From: an uncultured Oscillospiraceae bacterium
GTDB taxonomy: Bacteria > Bacillota > Clostridia > Oscillospirales > Oscillospiraceae
Assembly: GCA_947627745.1 (NCBI GenBank)
Contig: CANQXH010000005.1
Coordinates: 1-50,684 of the forward strand
Direction: 5' to 3'
Length of the DNA stretch: 50,684 nucleotides
The position numbers were made by a program, and so were the translations under genes. The notes beneath the pieces were generated by a model, which was given only the letters and a program-made list of their open reading frames with translations, searched no databases and was not told where the DNA came from. Shown here piece after piece: positions 1,415 to 50,367 of the stretch. Within the stretch, counting starts at the first letter, position 1. Every line of letters starts with the position of its first letter.

Positions 1415-1443
1415 TTGACAATCTTTTATACTGGTGATATAAT
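1415..1443 (+). promoter_or_regulatory. SigA-type promoter of the trp operon
   Basis: TTGACA (1415-1420) and TATAAT (1438-1443) are both perfect consensus hexamers with an exact 17-bp spacer. Transcription should start near 1450, at the head of the T-box leader. Confidence 0.9.
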
Positions 1444-1449
1444 AAGGAG

Positions 1450-1736
1450 GAATTTAATAGAGTAAACCGTTGAAGCGGAGATAACGGCAACGATGCCTTT
1501 ACAGAGAGCCTGTGGCGCTGAGAGTCAGGTAAGAAACAAGTTGTCAAATGGACCGCTGAGGGCGCAGTCAAATGAGATCTTCTCAGAGTATTCTGCGACG
1601 CTGAAGGCAAGCGTATAAATGCCGGGGGTATGTTGGTACCCCGCTAAGGGCATAGGGTCGTTCCTATGAATCAAGGTGGCACCGCGGATAAGTTTTTTAT
1701 TCGTCCTTGACAGAGCGCATCGTTCTGTCAAGGGCG
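1450..1736 (+). promoter_or_regulatory. T-box leader, probable tRNA-Trp specificity
   Basis: The T-box sequence AAGGTGGCACCGCGG lies at 1673-1687 and is preceded by about 220 bases of stem-rich leader. A TGG triplet followed by A at 1549-1551 is placed at the 3' side of the Stem I region, as expected for a Trp specifier codon, and the downstream genes make tryptophan. In known T-boxes, uncharged tRNA pairs with the specifier and with the TGGC bulge of the T-box, favouring an antiterminator over the terminator at 1702-1736. T-box identity is secure; the exact specifier position was placed by eye. Confidence 0.9.
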
Positions 1737-1740
1737 TTTT
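1702..1740 (+). terminator. T-box-controlled intrinsic terminator
   Basis: CGTCCTTGACAGA (1702-1714) pairs with TCTGTCAAGGGCG (1724-1736) with one G-U pair, followed by TTTTGTATTTT. Its position just after the T-box sequence is that of the regulated terminator. Confidence 0.85.
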
Positions 1741-1748
1741 GTATTTTG

Positions 1749-1790
1749 AACTCCTTTGACAGGGAAGAGTCAAAGGAGTTTTTCTTTTTT
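1749..1790 (+). terminator. Second intrinsic terminator between T-box and leader ORF
   Basis: AACTCCTTTGAC (1749-1760) and GTCAAAGGAGTT (1769-1780) form a perfect 12-bp stem with an 8-base loop, followed by TTTCTTTTTT. It lies 13 bases after the first terminator and one base before the AGGAGG of the short ORF. How the polymerase passes it when the T-box is ON is not evident from the sequence. Confidence 0.8.
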
Positions 1791-1803
1791 AGGAGGTTAA
1801 AAG

Positions 1804-1887
1804 ATGCTGATAAAGAAGCGCTGGTGGCGCCCCGCGCGCCTGACAAAAGACTTGAACGACGGAAAGCGAACGCAAAAAATTATTTAA
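1804..1887 (+). CDS. Putative trp leader peptide with tandem Trp codons (27 aa)
   Basis: An ATG preceded by a strong AGGAGG (1791-1796, 7-base spacing) opens a 27-codon ORF beginning MLIKKRWWRPARL and ending in TAA, 17 bases before trpD. Codons 7 and 8 are TGG TGG (1822-1827), directly upstream of tryptophan biosynthesis genes. Tandem Trp codons in a short ORF are the signature of ribosome-mediated attenuation; in Bacillus the anti-TRAP (rtpA) leader pairs a T-box with a Trp-containing leader peptide that controls translation. A small hairpin (GGCGC/GCGCC, 1826-1840) overlaps the second Trp codon. The 5' arm CTCCTT of the preceding terminator is complementary to the trpD Shine-Dalgarno AAGGAG (1891-1896). 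Expression as a peptide is inferred, not proven; it could be a remnant of a deleted upstream gene. Confidence 0.6.
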   Translation: MLIKKRWWRPARLTKDLNDGKRTQKII

Positions 1888-1904
1888 AATAAGGAGAGAT
1901 CATC

Positions 1905-2936
1905 ATGATCAGAGCGGCAATTGAAAAAATATCCAATAAAGCAGACCTCACCTATGCGGAGGCATACAACGTCATGAACGAAATCATGAGCGGGGAAACG
2001 ACGCCGACGCAGAATGCCGCCTTTCTGGCAGCATTGGCGACTAAGAGCACCCGGGCGGAAACCACCGAGGAAATCGCGGGCTGTGCCGCCGCCATGAGAG
2101 ATCACGCGACGAAAGTGAAAGCAGGTATGGATCTTTTTGAGATCGTCGGTACCGGCGGCGACGGCGCCCACAGCTTCAACATTTCCACCACCTCCGCCCT
2201 CGTCGCCGCCGCCGGCGGGATGAAGGTGGCGAAACACGGCAACCGTGCCGCTTCTTCCCAATGCGGAACGGCAGACTGTCTGGAAGCGCTGGGCGTCAAC
2301 ATTCAGCAAAGCCCGGAAAGATGTATAGAGCTTCTGAATGAAGTCGGTATGTGCTTCTTCTTCGCGCAGAAATATCACACCTCTATGAAATATGTGGGGG
2401 CGATCCGCAAGGAGCTGGGTTTCCGTACCGTATTCAATATTTTAGGGCCCCTCACCAATCCCGGCAGTCCGACCATGCAGCTTTTAGGGGTATACGATGA
2501 ATATTTGGTGACGCCGTTAGCGCAGGTTCTCATGAACCTGGGCGTAAAACGGGGGATGGTGGTATACGGACAGGATAAGCTGGATGAGATCTCCATGAGC
2601 GCGCCGACGACGGTATGCGAAATGCGAGACGGCTGGTTCAAATCCTATGTCATCACCCCGGAGGAGTTTGGCTTTGATCGTTGTACCAAAGAGGACCTGA
2701 AGGGCGGCACGCCCGAGGAAAACGCCAAGATCACCCTTGCCATCTTAAATGGGGAACAGGGACCGAAACGGAATACGGTTTTGATGAACGCGGGGGCGGC
2801 CTTTTATATTGGCGGCAAGGCGGACAGCATGGCAGACGGTATTGCCCTTGCCACCCAGATTATTGATTCCGGCAAGGCCCTGGAGACGCTCCACAAGTTG
2901 ATTGAAGTCAGCAACCGCCCAGAGGCGCCGGTATGA
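1905..2936 (+). CDS. trpD: Anthranilate phosphoribosyltransferase
   Basis: The 343-residue protein has the normal length of the family and transfers a phosphoribosyl group from PRPP to anthranilate, the second step of the tryptophan branch. The PRPP/Mg site [15 protein letters not shown] and the [21 protein letters not shown] block are intact. The start ATG follows AAGGAGAG at 1891-1898. It is the first enzyme gene of trpDCFBA; no trpE or trpG precedes it, so anthranilate synthase must be encoded elsewhere or anthranilate obtained otherwise. The stop overlaps the trpC start by ATGA, implying translational coupling. Base composition looks less GC-rich than the flanking glycan and transport genes. 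Confidence 0.96.
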
Positions 2937-3715
2937 CGATCCTCGATCAGCTCGCGGAACACGCCCGTGGGCGGGTGGCGGAGGCAAAAAGGAAGGTCCC
3001 GCTCCAGAAGCTCAAACAGCAAGCCCTGTCCATGCCCAAGGGGAATTTTGCCTTTGAAAAGGCGCTGAAAAAGCCGGGCATCTCCTTTATCTGCGAATGT
3101 AAAAAAGCGTCTCCTTCCAAAGGACTCATCGCGCCGGATTTTCCCTATCTGGAAATCGCGAAGGAGTACGAAGCGGCGGGGGCGGACGGTATTTCCGTCC
3201 TGACCGAACCGAAATGGTTTTTAGGCAGCAACGAATACCTGAAAGAGATCGCCCGGGCCGTCAGCGTTCCCTGCCTGCGGAAGGACTTTACGGTGGATGA
3301 GTATATGATCTACGAGGCGAAGGTGCTGGGCGCGTCGGCGGTACTGCTGATCTGCTCCATGCTGACCGAAGAGGACCTGCGGGAATACCTTACGCTGTGC
3401 GATGAGCTGGGGCTGTCCGCTTTCGTCGAAGCCCATGATGAGGCTGAAGTCCGCGGGGCGGTAAAAGCGGGGGCCCGGATTATCGGCGTCAACAACCGCA
3501 ACCTCAAGGATTTTTCCGTGGATACCGATAACAGCCGCAGGCTTCGCGGGCTTATTCCGAAGGACGTATTATTCATTTCCGAAAGCGGTGTACGCACCGC
3601 CGAAGATGTGGCAAAGCTCCTTGAGATCGGCGCGGATGGGGTGCTCATCGGTGAAACGCTGATGCGCGCGGCCGACAAATGTGCCAAGCTGGCGGAACTG
3701 CGAGGGAAAGTATGA
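2933..3715 (+). CDS. trpC: Indole-3-glycerol-phosphate synthase
   Basis: This 260-residue (beta/alpha)8 enzyme closes the ring of CdRP to give indole-3-glycerol phosphate, releasing CO2. Conserved blocks visible are [12 protein letters not shown] (catalytic Lys region), the LRKDF motif, [14 protein letters not shown] and the C-terminal phosphate-binding LIGETLM. Length equals the stand-alone TrpC family; it is not fused to TrpF. It overlaps trpD upstream and trpF downstream, each by ATGA, so all three are likely translationally coupled. Confidence 0.96.
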
Positions 3716-4320
3716 CAAAGATCAAGCTATGCGGTCTTTCCCGGCCTTGTGACATCGAGGCCGCGAATCAGCTAAAACCCGACTATATTGGATTTGTTTT
3801 CGCGCCGAAAAGCAAACGGTATGTCACACCTGAACAAGCGAGGGCGTTAAAGCAAATGCTTCTGCCTGAAATTCAGGCGGTCGGGGTGTTTGTAAATGAG
3901 GATCCCCAGAATATCGCAAGGCTCTTGCGGGACCAGATCATTGACATGGCGCAGCTTCACGGCGGCGAGGACGAGGCGTATATCGCACGGTTGCGACAGC
4001 TCACCGATCAGCCGGTCATCCAGGCGTTTCGTGTAGAGACCGCAAGGGATTTGGAAAAGGTTGAACAAAGCACCGCCGATTATGTACTGCTGGATTCCGG
4101 CGCGGGCACGGGGAAGGTATTTGATTGGGATCTCATCCAAAACATCACCAGGCCGTATTTCCTTGCCGGAGGTCTTGACCCTCATAATGTGGCAGACGCG
4201 GTCAAAACACGCCGCCCCTATGGGGTAGACGTCAGCTCCGGCATTGAAACAGGCGGACGAAAAGACAAAGACAAAATGGCGGCGTTTGTTGCCGCCGTGA
4301 GAAAGGAGGAGGGATCATGA
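3712..4320 (+). CDS. trpF: Phosphoribosylanthranilate isomerase
   Basis: A 202-residue (beta/alpha)8 isomerase converting PRA to CdRP. Motifs include [11 protein letters not shown] (catalytic Cys in strand 1), [24 protein letters not shown], the [14 protein letters not shown] block with the catalytic Asp region, [11 protein letters not shown] and DVSSGIE. The ATG at 3712 overlaps the trpC stop (ATGA) and is preferred over an in-frame start 33 bases upstream, because family members begin with the KLCG strand a few residues after the initiator. Confidence 0.95.
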
Positions 4321-5507
4321 CCAATCCAAAGGGACGCTTCGGCATTCACGGCGGTCAGTATATCCCCGAAACGCTGATGAACGCGGTCCTTGAACTGGAG
4401 GAAGCGTATAATCACTATAAAAAGGATCCTGAATTTAACAGGGAGCTTACCGAACTTCTCAATGAGTACGCCGGCAGACCGTCCAGGCTTTACTATGCTG
4501 AGAAAATGACGAAGGACCTTGGCGGCGCGAAGATCTACCTCAAGCGTGAAGACCTGAATCACACGGGCGCCCATAAGATCAACAATGTACTCGGCCAGGC
4601 GCTTCTGGCTAAAAAGATGGGCAAGACCAGACTCATCGCCGAGACGGGGGCCGGTCAGCACGGCGTCGCCACCGCTACCGCCGCCGCGCTGATGGGTATG
4701 GAATGCGTGGTATTCATGGGCGAAGAGGATACCATCCGTCAAGCGCTGAATGTGTACCGGATGCGGCTGCTTGGCGCGGAGGTCATCCCTGTCAAGACCG
4801 GCACTGCCACCCTCAAGGACGCGGTTTCCGAGGCAATGCGAGAGTGGACTTCCCGCATTGCTGATACCCACTACTGCCTCGGCTCGGTGATGGGGCCCCA
4901 TCCGTTCCCGACCATCGTCCGTGATTTTCAGGCGGTGATCTCCAAGGAGATCAAGGAGCAGATTCTGCAAAAGGAAGGCCGGCTACCCGACGCTGTGATC
5001 GCCTGTGTGGGCGGCGGCTCCAACGCCATCGGCAGTTTCTATCATTTCATTGAGGATCCGGTCGTCAGGTTGATCGGCTGCGAAGCGGCCGGCAGAGGAA
5101 TTGATACCTTTGAAACGGCGGCGACCATCAATACCGGCAGAGTTGGGATCTTCCACGGGATGAAGTCCTATTTCTGCCAGGATCAGTACGGTCAGATCGC
5201 CCCCGTTTACTCCATTTCCGCGGGACTTGACTATCCCGGCGTAGGCCCCGAACACGCCTATCTCCACGATATCGGCAGAGCGGAATATGTGCCCGTGACG
5301 GATGACGAGGCGGTAAACGCTTTCGAGTATCTTGCCAGGACGGAAGGGATCATTCCGGCAATCGAATCGGCCCACGCTGTTGCCCACGCTATGAAGATCG
5401 CGCCGGCCATGGATCCAGACAAGATCATGGTGATTACCATCTCCGGCAGAGGGGACAAGGACTGCGCGGCCATCGCCCGGTACAGAGGGGAGGATCTCCA
5501 TGAGTAA
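4317..5507 (+). CDS. trpB: Tryptophan synthase beta subunit
   Basis: A 396-residue PLP enzyme joining indole and serine. The PLP lysine motif [15 protein letters not shown], the AETGAGQHG loop, the phosphate-binding GGGSNAIG and the C-terminal SGRGDKD are present, marking the TrpB1 subfamily that pairs with TrpA. The start overlaps the trpF stop by ATGA and an AGGAGG lies just upstream within trpF. It overlaps trpA by eight bases, consistent with stoichiometric synthesis of the alpha2beta2 complex. Confidence 0.97.
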
Positions 5508-6270
5508 CATCAGAAAGGCGTTTGAAAACGGAAAAGCGTTTATTCCCTTTATCACCTGCGGAGATCCGGATCTGGAAACCACCGCCGCCGCGGTAAAGGC
5601 CGCTGTGGAAAACGGCGCCGACATCATTGAGCTTGGGATCCCCTTTTCCGATCCCACCGCGGAAGGACCGGTCATTCAGAGCGCCAACCTGAGAGCGCTA
5701 AGCGGTGGGATTACCACAGATCAGATTTTCGCGTTTGTCAAGGAGCTTCGCCGGGACGTAAAAGTGCCGATGGTGTTTATGACCTACGCCAACGTGGTGT
5801 TCTCCTACGGCGCGGAGCGATTTATCTCCACCTGTAAGGATCTCGAAATCGACGGACTGATTCTGCCCGACCTGCCCTTCGAAGAAAAGGAGGAGTTCCA
5901 CCCCCTTTGTAAGCGGTACGGCGTGGAGCTTGTATCCCTCATCGCGCCTACCTCGGGAAACCGGATCGCCATGATCGCCAAAGAAGCGGAAGGGTTTCTC
6001 TATATCGTATCCAGCCTCGGCGTGACCGGTATGAGAAGCGAGATTAAAACGGACCTTGCTTCCATTGTCCAGGTGGTAAGAGAAAACACCAGCATACCCT
6101 GCGCGATCGGGTTTGGTATTTCCACGCCGGAGCAGGCAAAGAAAATGGCGGATATTTCGGATGGCGCCATCGTCGGCTCCGCGATTATTAAGCTGCTTGA
6201 AAAGCACGGGAAGGATGCCCCGAAGTATATCGGCGCGTTCGTAAAGTCGATGAAAGACGCGATAAGATGA
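5500..6270 (+). CDS. trpA: Tryptophan synthase alpha subunit
   Basis: A 256-residue (beta/alpha)8 subunit cleaving indole-3-glycerol phosphate and channelling indole to TrpB. The catalytic Glu is in [11 protein letters not shown]. The following loop reads [10 protein letters not shown]; in the enterobacterial enzyme this position carries the second catalytic acid, Asp60 (DPLADGP), so here Asp is replaced by Glu. I believe such a Glu occurs in other Clostridia, which would make it a lineage trait, but this was not checked. Phosphate-binding GFGIS and IVGSAI are intact. It is the last gene of the operon. Confidence 0.95.
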
Positions 6271-42322: not shown

Positions 42323-42398
<76 letters not shown>

Positions 42399-46504: not shown

Positions 46505-46735
46505 GGAACGTCGAAAAAGCCACATCATCGGTCTTCCGGCTCGTGTATTGGAAGGCTCACGCCTCTGCGCCAAAAGATCTACCTTCTCAGGGCTTTCCCC
46601 AATGGCCGGCTCACGCCGCGACCTCTTGACTCCTACACATACGGCAACGGTAAAATGCGCCGGACTCCCACCGGCTTCCCTCATCCAGGCGCCTGCGAAA
46701 ACCGCAGTCTTCACGCCGGGACACGATGCTCTGTT
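46505..46735 (-). promoter_or_regulatory. Cobalamin (AdoCbl) riboswitch
   Basis: On the minus strand the conserved core GGGAAGCCGGTGGGAGTCC lies at 46680-46662, and the B12 box GAGCCGGAAGACCG followed by ATGATGTGGC lies at 46542-46519. Spacing and order fit the cobalamin aptamer. It precedes btuC with a terminator between them, so high cobalamin should shut the importer off. Outer limits are approximate. Confidence 0.92.
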
Positions 46736-50293: not shown

Positions 50294-50367
50294 GCGGGTA
50301 TAGTTCATCGGTAGAATGCGACCTTCCCAAGGTTGACAGGTGGGTTCGACTCCCATTACCCGCTCCA
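50294..50367 (+). tRNA. tRNA-Gly (CCC)
   Basis: GCGGGTA/TACCCGC acceptor stem, D-arm GTTCATCGGTAGAAT, anticodon stem CGACC/GGTTG with loop TTCCCAA (anticodon CCC), T-arm TGGGTTCGACTCCCA, discriminator T and encoded CCA. Confidence 0.96.

Follow-up and report, generated by a model that had tools for sequence, protein, structure and literature searches.

The locus examined here raises the question of why trp genes that already stand behind a tryptophan T-box should carry, beyond its terminators, a short open reading frame (ORF) with two adjacent Trp codons. We addressed it in the window, by which we mean the whole analysed stretch of 50,684 nt from an uncultured Oscillospiraceae bacterium, and in leaders from other genomes; features lie on the plus strand unless stated otherwise. 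The promoter (1415..1443) matched the consensus in 12/12 letters, with TTGACA at 1415-1420, a 17-nt spacer and TATAAT at 1438-1443, in agreement with the perfect promoter of a preliminary description of this DNA. The Trp T-box claimed there was also recovered: a leader running from stem I to the antiterminator (1461..1711) matched the covariance model RF00230 over its full length (model 1-219, 85.7 bits, E 4e-19). This score is below the Rfam gathering score of 93, so the match is absent from a default-threshold scan; the T-box identity is real nonetheless. The T-box sequence occupies 1673-1687, and the specifier codon, inferred from the Rfam alignment to the specifier region, is UGG at 1550..1552 within AAATGGACCG (1546-1555), which agrees with the regulated pathway, trpDCFBA downstream. 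The fold of 1448-1790 was better than that of 100/100 dinucleotide shuffles (z -4.5). The leader is placed directly on biosynthetic genes, as had been described: trpD (1905..2936; TIGR01245, E 5e-122) is followed by trpC (2933..3715; NF001377), trpF (3679..4320; best model NF002298, 188 bits and below the cut-off of 215), trpB (4317..5507; TIGR00263) and trpA (5500..6270; TIGR00262), the last two above cut-off. In the window's genome, which is 98% complete in 150 contigs, no TrpE-family match was found at E 0.001; the cell may need anthranilate from its surroundings, or trpE may lie on a missing contig. Elsewhere in the window we observed a Cobalamin riboswitch (46530-46680, minus strand, 35.7 bits), a tRNA-Ala(GGC) (42323-42398, minus strand) and a tRNA-Gly(CCC) (50294-50367, plus strand).

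Two successive U-tailed hairpins had been claimed behind the T-box sequence, and both were found. The antiterminator (1673..1708, from the sequence and a forced fold) pairs AAGG with CCTT and GCGGATAA with TTATTCGT, with the bulge UGGCACC. Terminator T1 (1702..1736, 16 pairs) excludes it, CGTCCTT being common to both in forced folds, and terminator T2 (1748..1781, 13 pairs) carries a U tract. T1 and T2 are the sole terminator-like sites in 1350-1990 (2; shuffle mean 0.9). The 5' arm of T2 (CTCCTTTGACAG) resembles that of T1 and is able to pair with the 3' arm of T1, which could capture it once freed (duplex -17.7 kcal/mol). We considered and rejected coupling of T1 and T2 through this arm: the pairing exists, but the coupled fold (-37.1 kcal/mol) is less stable by 5.9 kcal/mol than the antiterminator plus T2 (-43.0 kcal/mol). 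T2 may therefore stop transcription even with the T-box on; it is probably a second, fail-safe terminator, possibly coupled to T1 kinetically and loosened once the T1 3' arm is free. Across loci, the T1 3' arm fitted a downstream stretch at z < -2 in 31/97, a figure obtained with 30 shuffles per locus by an approximate dinucleotide method of our own making, and as a sign of coupling this fit is suggestive only. Some loci carry the leader ORF without T2 and others T2 without the leader; the two are therefore separate modules. Three leaderless Trp T-boxes before trpS or trpD (L035, L036, L037) showed an arrangement of another kind, in which a T2-like hairpin, judged by eye, seems to cover the Shine-Dalgarno sequence (SD) and this stretch is also a fit for the T1 3' arm (z -3.1, -2.6 and -4.1), which hints at a T-box governing both termination and translation.

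Beyond T2, the AGGAGG-N7-ATG and the 27-codon ORF with TGG TGG at codons 7-8 were found as the preliminary description had given them: the SD lies at 1791..1796, and the ORF (1804..1887) starts with ATG at 1804, has the tandem Trp codons at 1822-1827, stops with TAA at 1885-1887 and encodes MLIKKRWWRPARLTKDLNDGKRTQKII. The SD of trpD, AAGGAG, follows at 1891..1896. No family for the leader peptides was found in NCBIfam (two peptides tested) or in Pfam (best E 0.12). A leader with tandem Trp had been expected in orthologues, and within the genus, where TrpD is present in 6/136 genomes, the expectation held at four of the six trpD loci (the window, L027, L028 and L029), which carry T2 and a KRWWRP leader; it failed at the other two (L030, L031), where the T-box is present and T2 and the leader are both absent. 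KRWWRP, the SD and the start are kept across the 4 species. Synonymous-biased change, likewise expected, was confined to part of the peptide: pairwise codon differences among the four leaders were 13 synonymous versus 9 non-synonymous in codons 2-13, and 10 versus 14 in codons 14-22, so that mainly the N-terminal half is kept. The Arg codon before the tandem Trp is CGC in the window, CGT in L027 and L028, CGA in L029 and CGT in a fifth KRWWRP leader, L034. A possible 5-bp hairpin, GGCGC-CCCGC-GCGCC (1826..1840), overlaps the second TGG; its GGCGC/GCGCC stem letters are identical in 5/5 KRWWRP leaders and its loop differs in 2. The leader stop precedes the trpD SD by 3 nt in the window and by 5 nt in L028 and L029, and in L027 the leader ORF extends beyond the trpD start. 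The ORF of this genus might be a decaying remnant left after trpE loss, with the T-box alone acting, a reading that would suit the missing trpE match in the window's genome, the weakly conserved second half of the peptide and the two loci without a leader. We regard it as very unlikely, given that KRWWRP, SD and start are retained in four species with synonymous changes. The leader ORF is genuine and more than chance, because related ORFs are found in orthologues and behind distant T-boxes.

A first set of distant leaders came from a DNA search of the order for the T-box alone, which matched 170/394 genomes; 30 loci and 80 more listed places were taken. Together with the genus and earlier loci, they made a set of 132 (L009-L141 without L026), from which the T-box loci of the window's own genome (L001-L008) were left out. 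Removal of 4 duplicates and of 16 loci without an accepted T-box motif gave 112 distinct T-box leaders. In 37/112 parsed Trp T-box loci, one leader without a recognised SD included (L052), a short ORF encodes Arg-Trp close to its N-terminus; the other 75/112 have no such ORF. The ORF occurred at 29/52 loci before trpB, 3/8 before trpD, 1/34 before trpE, 1/6 before TrpB-like genes, 0/2 before trpS and 3/10 before unassigned genes. A relaxed pass over the 16 motif-less loci yielded one leader (L027, tandem Trp, CGT), which deviates from the T-box motif used and stands outside the 37/112 count; T-box-like places without a leader were seen in L059 and L137, and nothing was found in 13. The peptides are exemplified by MLLTKRWRLFS, MFLLTKRWRGI and MFILSKRWRSYN. 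The core of the family is Arg-Trp (RW), mostly Lys-Arg-Trp (KRW), usually with a single Trp. The tandem-Trp ORF proposed earlier is thus a genuine leader with WW in this locus, but the conserved element is Arg-Trp and WW only a variant. With its SD and start, N-terminal Arg-Trp, Trp T-box upstream and Trp gene downstream, the window leader fits the KRW family.

KRW leaders were found behind Trp T-boxes before trpB, trpD, trpE and trpX (a Trp transporter gene), in Clostridia and Streptococcus. A nucleotide pattern (T-box, U run, CGATGGYG) run over named genomes matched at least 120 stretches; among the 80 matches listed with names were 19 streptococci, three lactobacilli and one Endomicrobium, and most were Clostridia. 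The CGA pattern matched 12/391 genomes of the class, and a pattern without constraint on the Arg codon matched 7/398 genomes of the phylum, with L274 the sole true leader among the seven. The frequency in these wider samples is low; both nucleotide patterns miss leaders placed behind T2, the window's included. In other clostridial orders, chosen via the CGA pattern, three T-box searches (31, 4 and 16 genomes) gave 22 loci, 15 of them parsed; 11/15 had an RW leader, 4 of these 11 being already known through the CGA pattern, and 4 had none. One locus from these orders (L281) reads MKKIWWRQKPHNIN, with WW and neither CGA nor Arg.

Streptococcus was also chosen because the CGA pattern matched there. 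A T-box-only search matched 95/118 genomes, and 70 loci were parsed (30 returned, 40 fetched). Among 38 ORFs with RW, 36 were accepted; they represent 23 distinct peptides, and 33 of the 36 leaders stand before trpX-type genes. The remaining two were set aside as chance: L348 (AGG) has a TTG start and no assigned gene, and L371 (CGT) overlaps the next gene. A relaxed pass on four loci that had given no parsed row found CGA leaders in L311 and L354, a trpX-type gene without a leader in L332, and no T-box in L340; the leader is missing at two trpX-type loci, L355 and L332. Many Streptococcus genomes have two Trp T-box matches, with the KRW leader on the trpX copy; the parsed trp-operon T-boxes are without a leader except at L360 (trpB copy).

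Trp genes follow nearly all of the 139 leaders assembled: N-terminal motifs named 100 downstream genes as trpB and 23 as trpX; 2 were ECF-type and 14 were others. Family models were applied to 7 of these 14 and identified 5 as Trp-type and 1 as a TRAP-transporter gene (L204), with 1 falling in no family (L268). Spot checks with family models gave trpB in L018 and L346, trpD in L162, TrpB-like in L057, TrpX (NF041285) in L191 and L150, and trpE in L034, L166, L234 and L363, the last with trpE as best model below the full-length cut-off; for genes beyond the spot checks the names come from N-terminal motifs or from visual inspection. The gene of L158 is an ECF-type S component, and with those of L204 and L268 it marks the few members that are therefore not clearly on Trp genes. 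In L204 (Syntrophomonadaceae), a KRWRW leader ORF lies behind a T-box-like stretch and before the TRAP-transporter substrate-binding gene, which is a candidate Trp transporter, or else the match is due to chance. In L166, from an Endomicrobium with rho present, a T-box and MSRIKRWRF precede trpE, perhaps acquired horizontally.

The family shows a constraint at the level of a single codon. In T-box-selected leaders, the Arg before a single Trp was CGA in 33/33; among 1520 Arg codons of the genes that follow in the 132-locus set, CGA accounts for 5.5%. In the other clostridial orders, all 11 RW leaders had CGA, one being WW, and the single-Trp leaders therefore counted 10/10, 4 of the 10 known beforehand by the CGA pattern. 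Streptococcus gave CGA in 36/36 accepted leaders and in 2/2 recovered by the relaxed pass; its Arg background, 39 codons with CGA at 20.5%, is too small for a comparison. The Arg codon after Trp varied in T-box-selected leaders (CGA 13, CGT 8, CGG 5, CGC 2, AGA/AGG never) and so serves as an internal control against mere shared ancestry, the counts being not tree-based; this Arg is missing in 5/33 single-Trp leaders. The window lacks CGA before Trp and reads CGC TGG TGG, and WW leaders use CGT, CGC or CGA. Either CGA-UGG or UGG-UGG thus seems to serve. The parts, their frame, their conservation and the codon bias are all seen in the sequence.

The constraint could instead lie in the nucleotides, CGAUGGYG being an RNA-binding site or pause signal and the peptide a by-product; CGATGG is indeed fixed in single-Trp leaders, and the base after TGG was C or T in every T-box-selected leader of the order set and the other clostridial orders. 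However, an SD-preceded start lay in frame with CGA TGG in 115/121 distinct matches, the other two frames giving 8 and 12 (matches selected by nucleotide motif only, from the listed named-genome matches and the class scan). The motif is therefore translated; moreover, CGATGG is absent from 4/5 KRWWRP leaders, and we consider a nucleotide signal quite unlikely. An overlapping ORF from the ATG inside CGATGG was also rejected; by eye it has neither an SD nor a constant length.

Arrest by the nascent peptide deserves somewhat more weight but is still unlikely. K-R-W-R, a motif of the +X+ type, would stall the ribosome through the peptide and not through an empty tRNA, perhaps sensing Trp or a drug, and the residues L-L-T-K-R-W-R do recur through synonymous changes. 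Parts of one study (PMC8632094) link an Arg-Leu-Arg upstream ORF to antibiotic-induced stalling. Peptide arrest predicts no fixed Arg codon, yet CGA is fixed, and 5/33 single-Trp leaders have no Arg after Trp. We propose that CGA before UGG sensitises the bacterial ribosome. According to the parts consulted of PMC3711424 and PMC10454642, a wobble inosine lets one tRNA-Arg decode CGU, CGC and CGA in most bacteria, and those of PMC6301793 describe CGA-CGA pairs as inhibitory in yeast. Tentatively, and with the odds rather against it, CGA-UGG would be a codon-pair sensor of an amino acid: on CGA, the inosine-adenosine wobble of tRNA-Arg(ICG) would make reading of the following codon slower or less stable and turn a single UGG into a sharp gauge of charged tRNA-Trp. 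It would add, behind the T-box, a second Trp sensor at the ribosome for the Trp biosynthesis and uptake genes found in Clostridia and Streptococcus, one that works without Rho, terminator or hairpin and for which UGG-UGG is interchangeable.

We then asked what output such a sensor could have. T1 and T2 are transcribed ahead of the leader's ribosome site, so the leader cannot steer either, and no terminator-like site follows the leader within 1350-1990. The switch suggested earlier, in which CTCCTT (1751-1756) would pair with AAGGAG of the trpD SD (1891-1896), did not survive: CTCCTT is inside the 13-pair T2 stem, AAGGAG is present three times in 1415-1920, and the trpD SD was open in both folds, 79% of it being unpaired when no ribosome was present and 76% when one occupied codons 7-8. 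Across the 139 leaders, whose sequences are related, the next SD was more open than in composition-preserving shuffles (0.50 versus 0.43, Wilcoxon p 1.5e-5). No excess folding was detected at 139 loci over the stretch from leader to gene (group mean z -0.2 to 0.1) or after the Trp codon (0.3 to 0.8), single loci with z below -2 numbering 3 and 4 of 139 in the two tests. Because the SDs are more open than shuffles and excess folding is missing, no shared output is visible. No rho match over cut-off was found in 22/24 leader genomes, the window's and all 10 streptococci tested among them; 19 of these 22 gave weak matches taken for ATP synthase subunits, and several of the genomes scanned are drafts. 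The two genomes with rho over cut-off were G627 and the Endomicrobium. Classical transcription attenuation, ermC-type SD masking and tnaC-type Rho control each use Trp or stall leaders elsewhere, but with no terminator after the leader, open SDs and rho largely below cut-off they are already contradicted for the window and unlikely as shared outputs; we give this group of explanations almost no credence.

What the window does have is a leader stop close to the trpD SD, and a ribosome that terminates at 1885-1887 should cover part of the SD at 1891-1896, as in rtpA. This stop-next-to-SD geometry is not general: the distance from stop to gene has a median of 45 nt (IQR 37-52) over 139 leaders, and occlusion is therefore unlikely in the wider family. 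For the window, tRNA sensing, stalling and its output, occlusion and the role of CGA are what we infer. In the transcription layer, the T-box is predicted to bind uncharged tRNA-Trp, upon which the antiterminator would displace T1. In the translation layer, beyond both terminators, ribosomes would load on the KRW-family leader ORF and, if charged tRNA-Trp runs short, pause at the Trp codons there. Because only a few nt separate the leader stop from the trpD SD in the window's lineage, ribosomes finishing the leader should hinder trpD initiation, and ribosomes paused at codons 7-8 would leave that SD open. This would be rtpA-like logic applied directly to trpD, and CGA-UGG would achieve with one Trp codon what UGG-UGG does in the window. 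To this reading of two stacked tryptophan checks, with the T-box controlling transcription and a Trp sensor based on ribosome stalling acting on trpD translation, we assign an even chance on the basis of the leader sequences. The two-layer control of the preliminary description thus keeps its T-box, two terminators and leader ORF on biosynthetic genes, its layers remain plausible, and its CTCCTT switch falls away.

In the wider family, the best alternative is mRNA shielding, in which a ribosome paused close to the 5' terminus of the readthrough transcript would guard that RNA against 5' decay and so raise its yield, with no need for an RNA switch. Ribosomes stalled in ermC-type leaders stabilise mRNA, and shielding would account for a conserved stall site with no downstream structure, variable spacing and no Rho. 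It leaves unexplained why the leader stop adjoins the trpD SD in the window, and overall we think it a real but minority possibility.

Stacked tRNA-Trp sensing by a T-box and a stalling ribosome is already known from one system, the Bacillus subtilis rtpA (yczA, anti-TRAP) leader, reportedly described by Chen and Yanofsky in 2003/2004. The rtpA leader ORF has three Trp codons and a stop a few nt before the next SD. The window resembles it in stacking a Trp T-box and a multi-Trp leader ORF after a terminator, with the stop 3 nt before the SD, and differs in being placed on trpD instead of the anti-TRAP gene and in having two Trp codons as well as a second terminator; the wider KRW family differs further, with one Trp after CGA and a gap of about 45 nt. 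To our knowledge, Bacillus rtpA is the sole known case of double tRNA-Trp sensing by T-box and ribosome. E. coli trpL is a short leader with WW then Arg that responds to charged tRNA-Trp and has its terminator after the leader; the window shares the WW then Arg in a short leader, whereas both of its terminators precede the leader. For rtpA, the portions consulted of PMC11255114 describe a Trp T-box and tRNA-dependent ribosome stalling, with transcription and translation both answering uncharged tRNA-Trp. In Streptococcus suis trpXYZ, a Trp T-box stands before trpX, the gene bearing KRWR leaders in other streptococci, and the portions seen of PMC9382623 mention no leader peptide for it. Actinobacterial trp attenuators and cys leader peptides are conserved, the cys case without an obvious terminator (PMC1262725, in part); unlike in the window, no T-box on the actinobacterial genes and no KRW or CGA-UGG appear in those portions. 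In the parts of the open-licence literature covered, we found neither a KRW leader nor any leader ORF following the trp T-box at these genes, absence from print being unproven.

The finding is that, in many Clostridia and streptococci, an rtpA-like stack stands directly ahead of genes for biosynthesis and uptake, and that conservation of the leader core reaches as far as one rare codon. This codon-level constraint is the part that would surprise a specialist. The arrangement opens a test of whether a codon read by wobble inosine can tune a hungry codon, and another of how a leader peptide acts without a terminator, a masked ribosome site or Rho. The KRW/CGA signature is also usable to find Trp-regulated genes.
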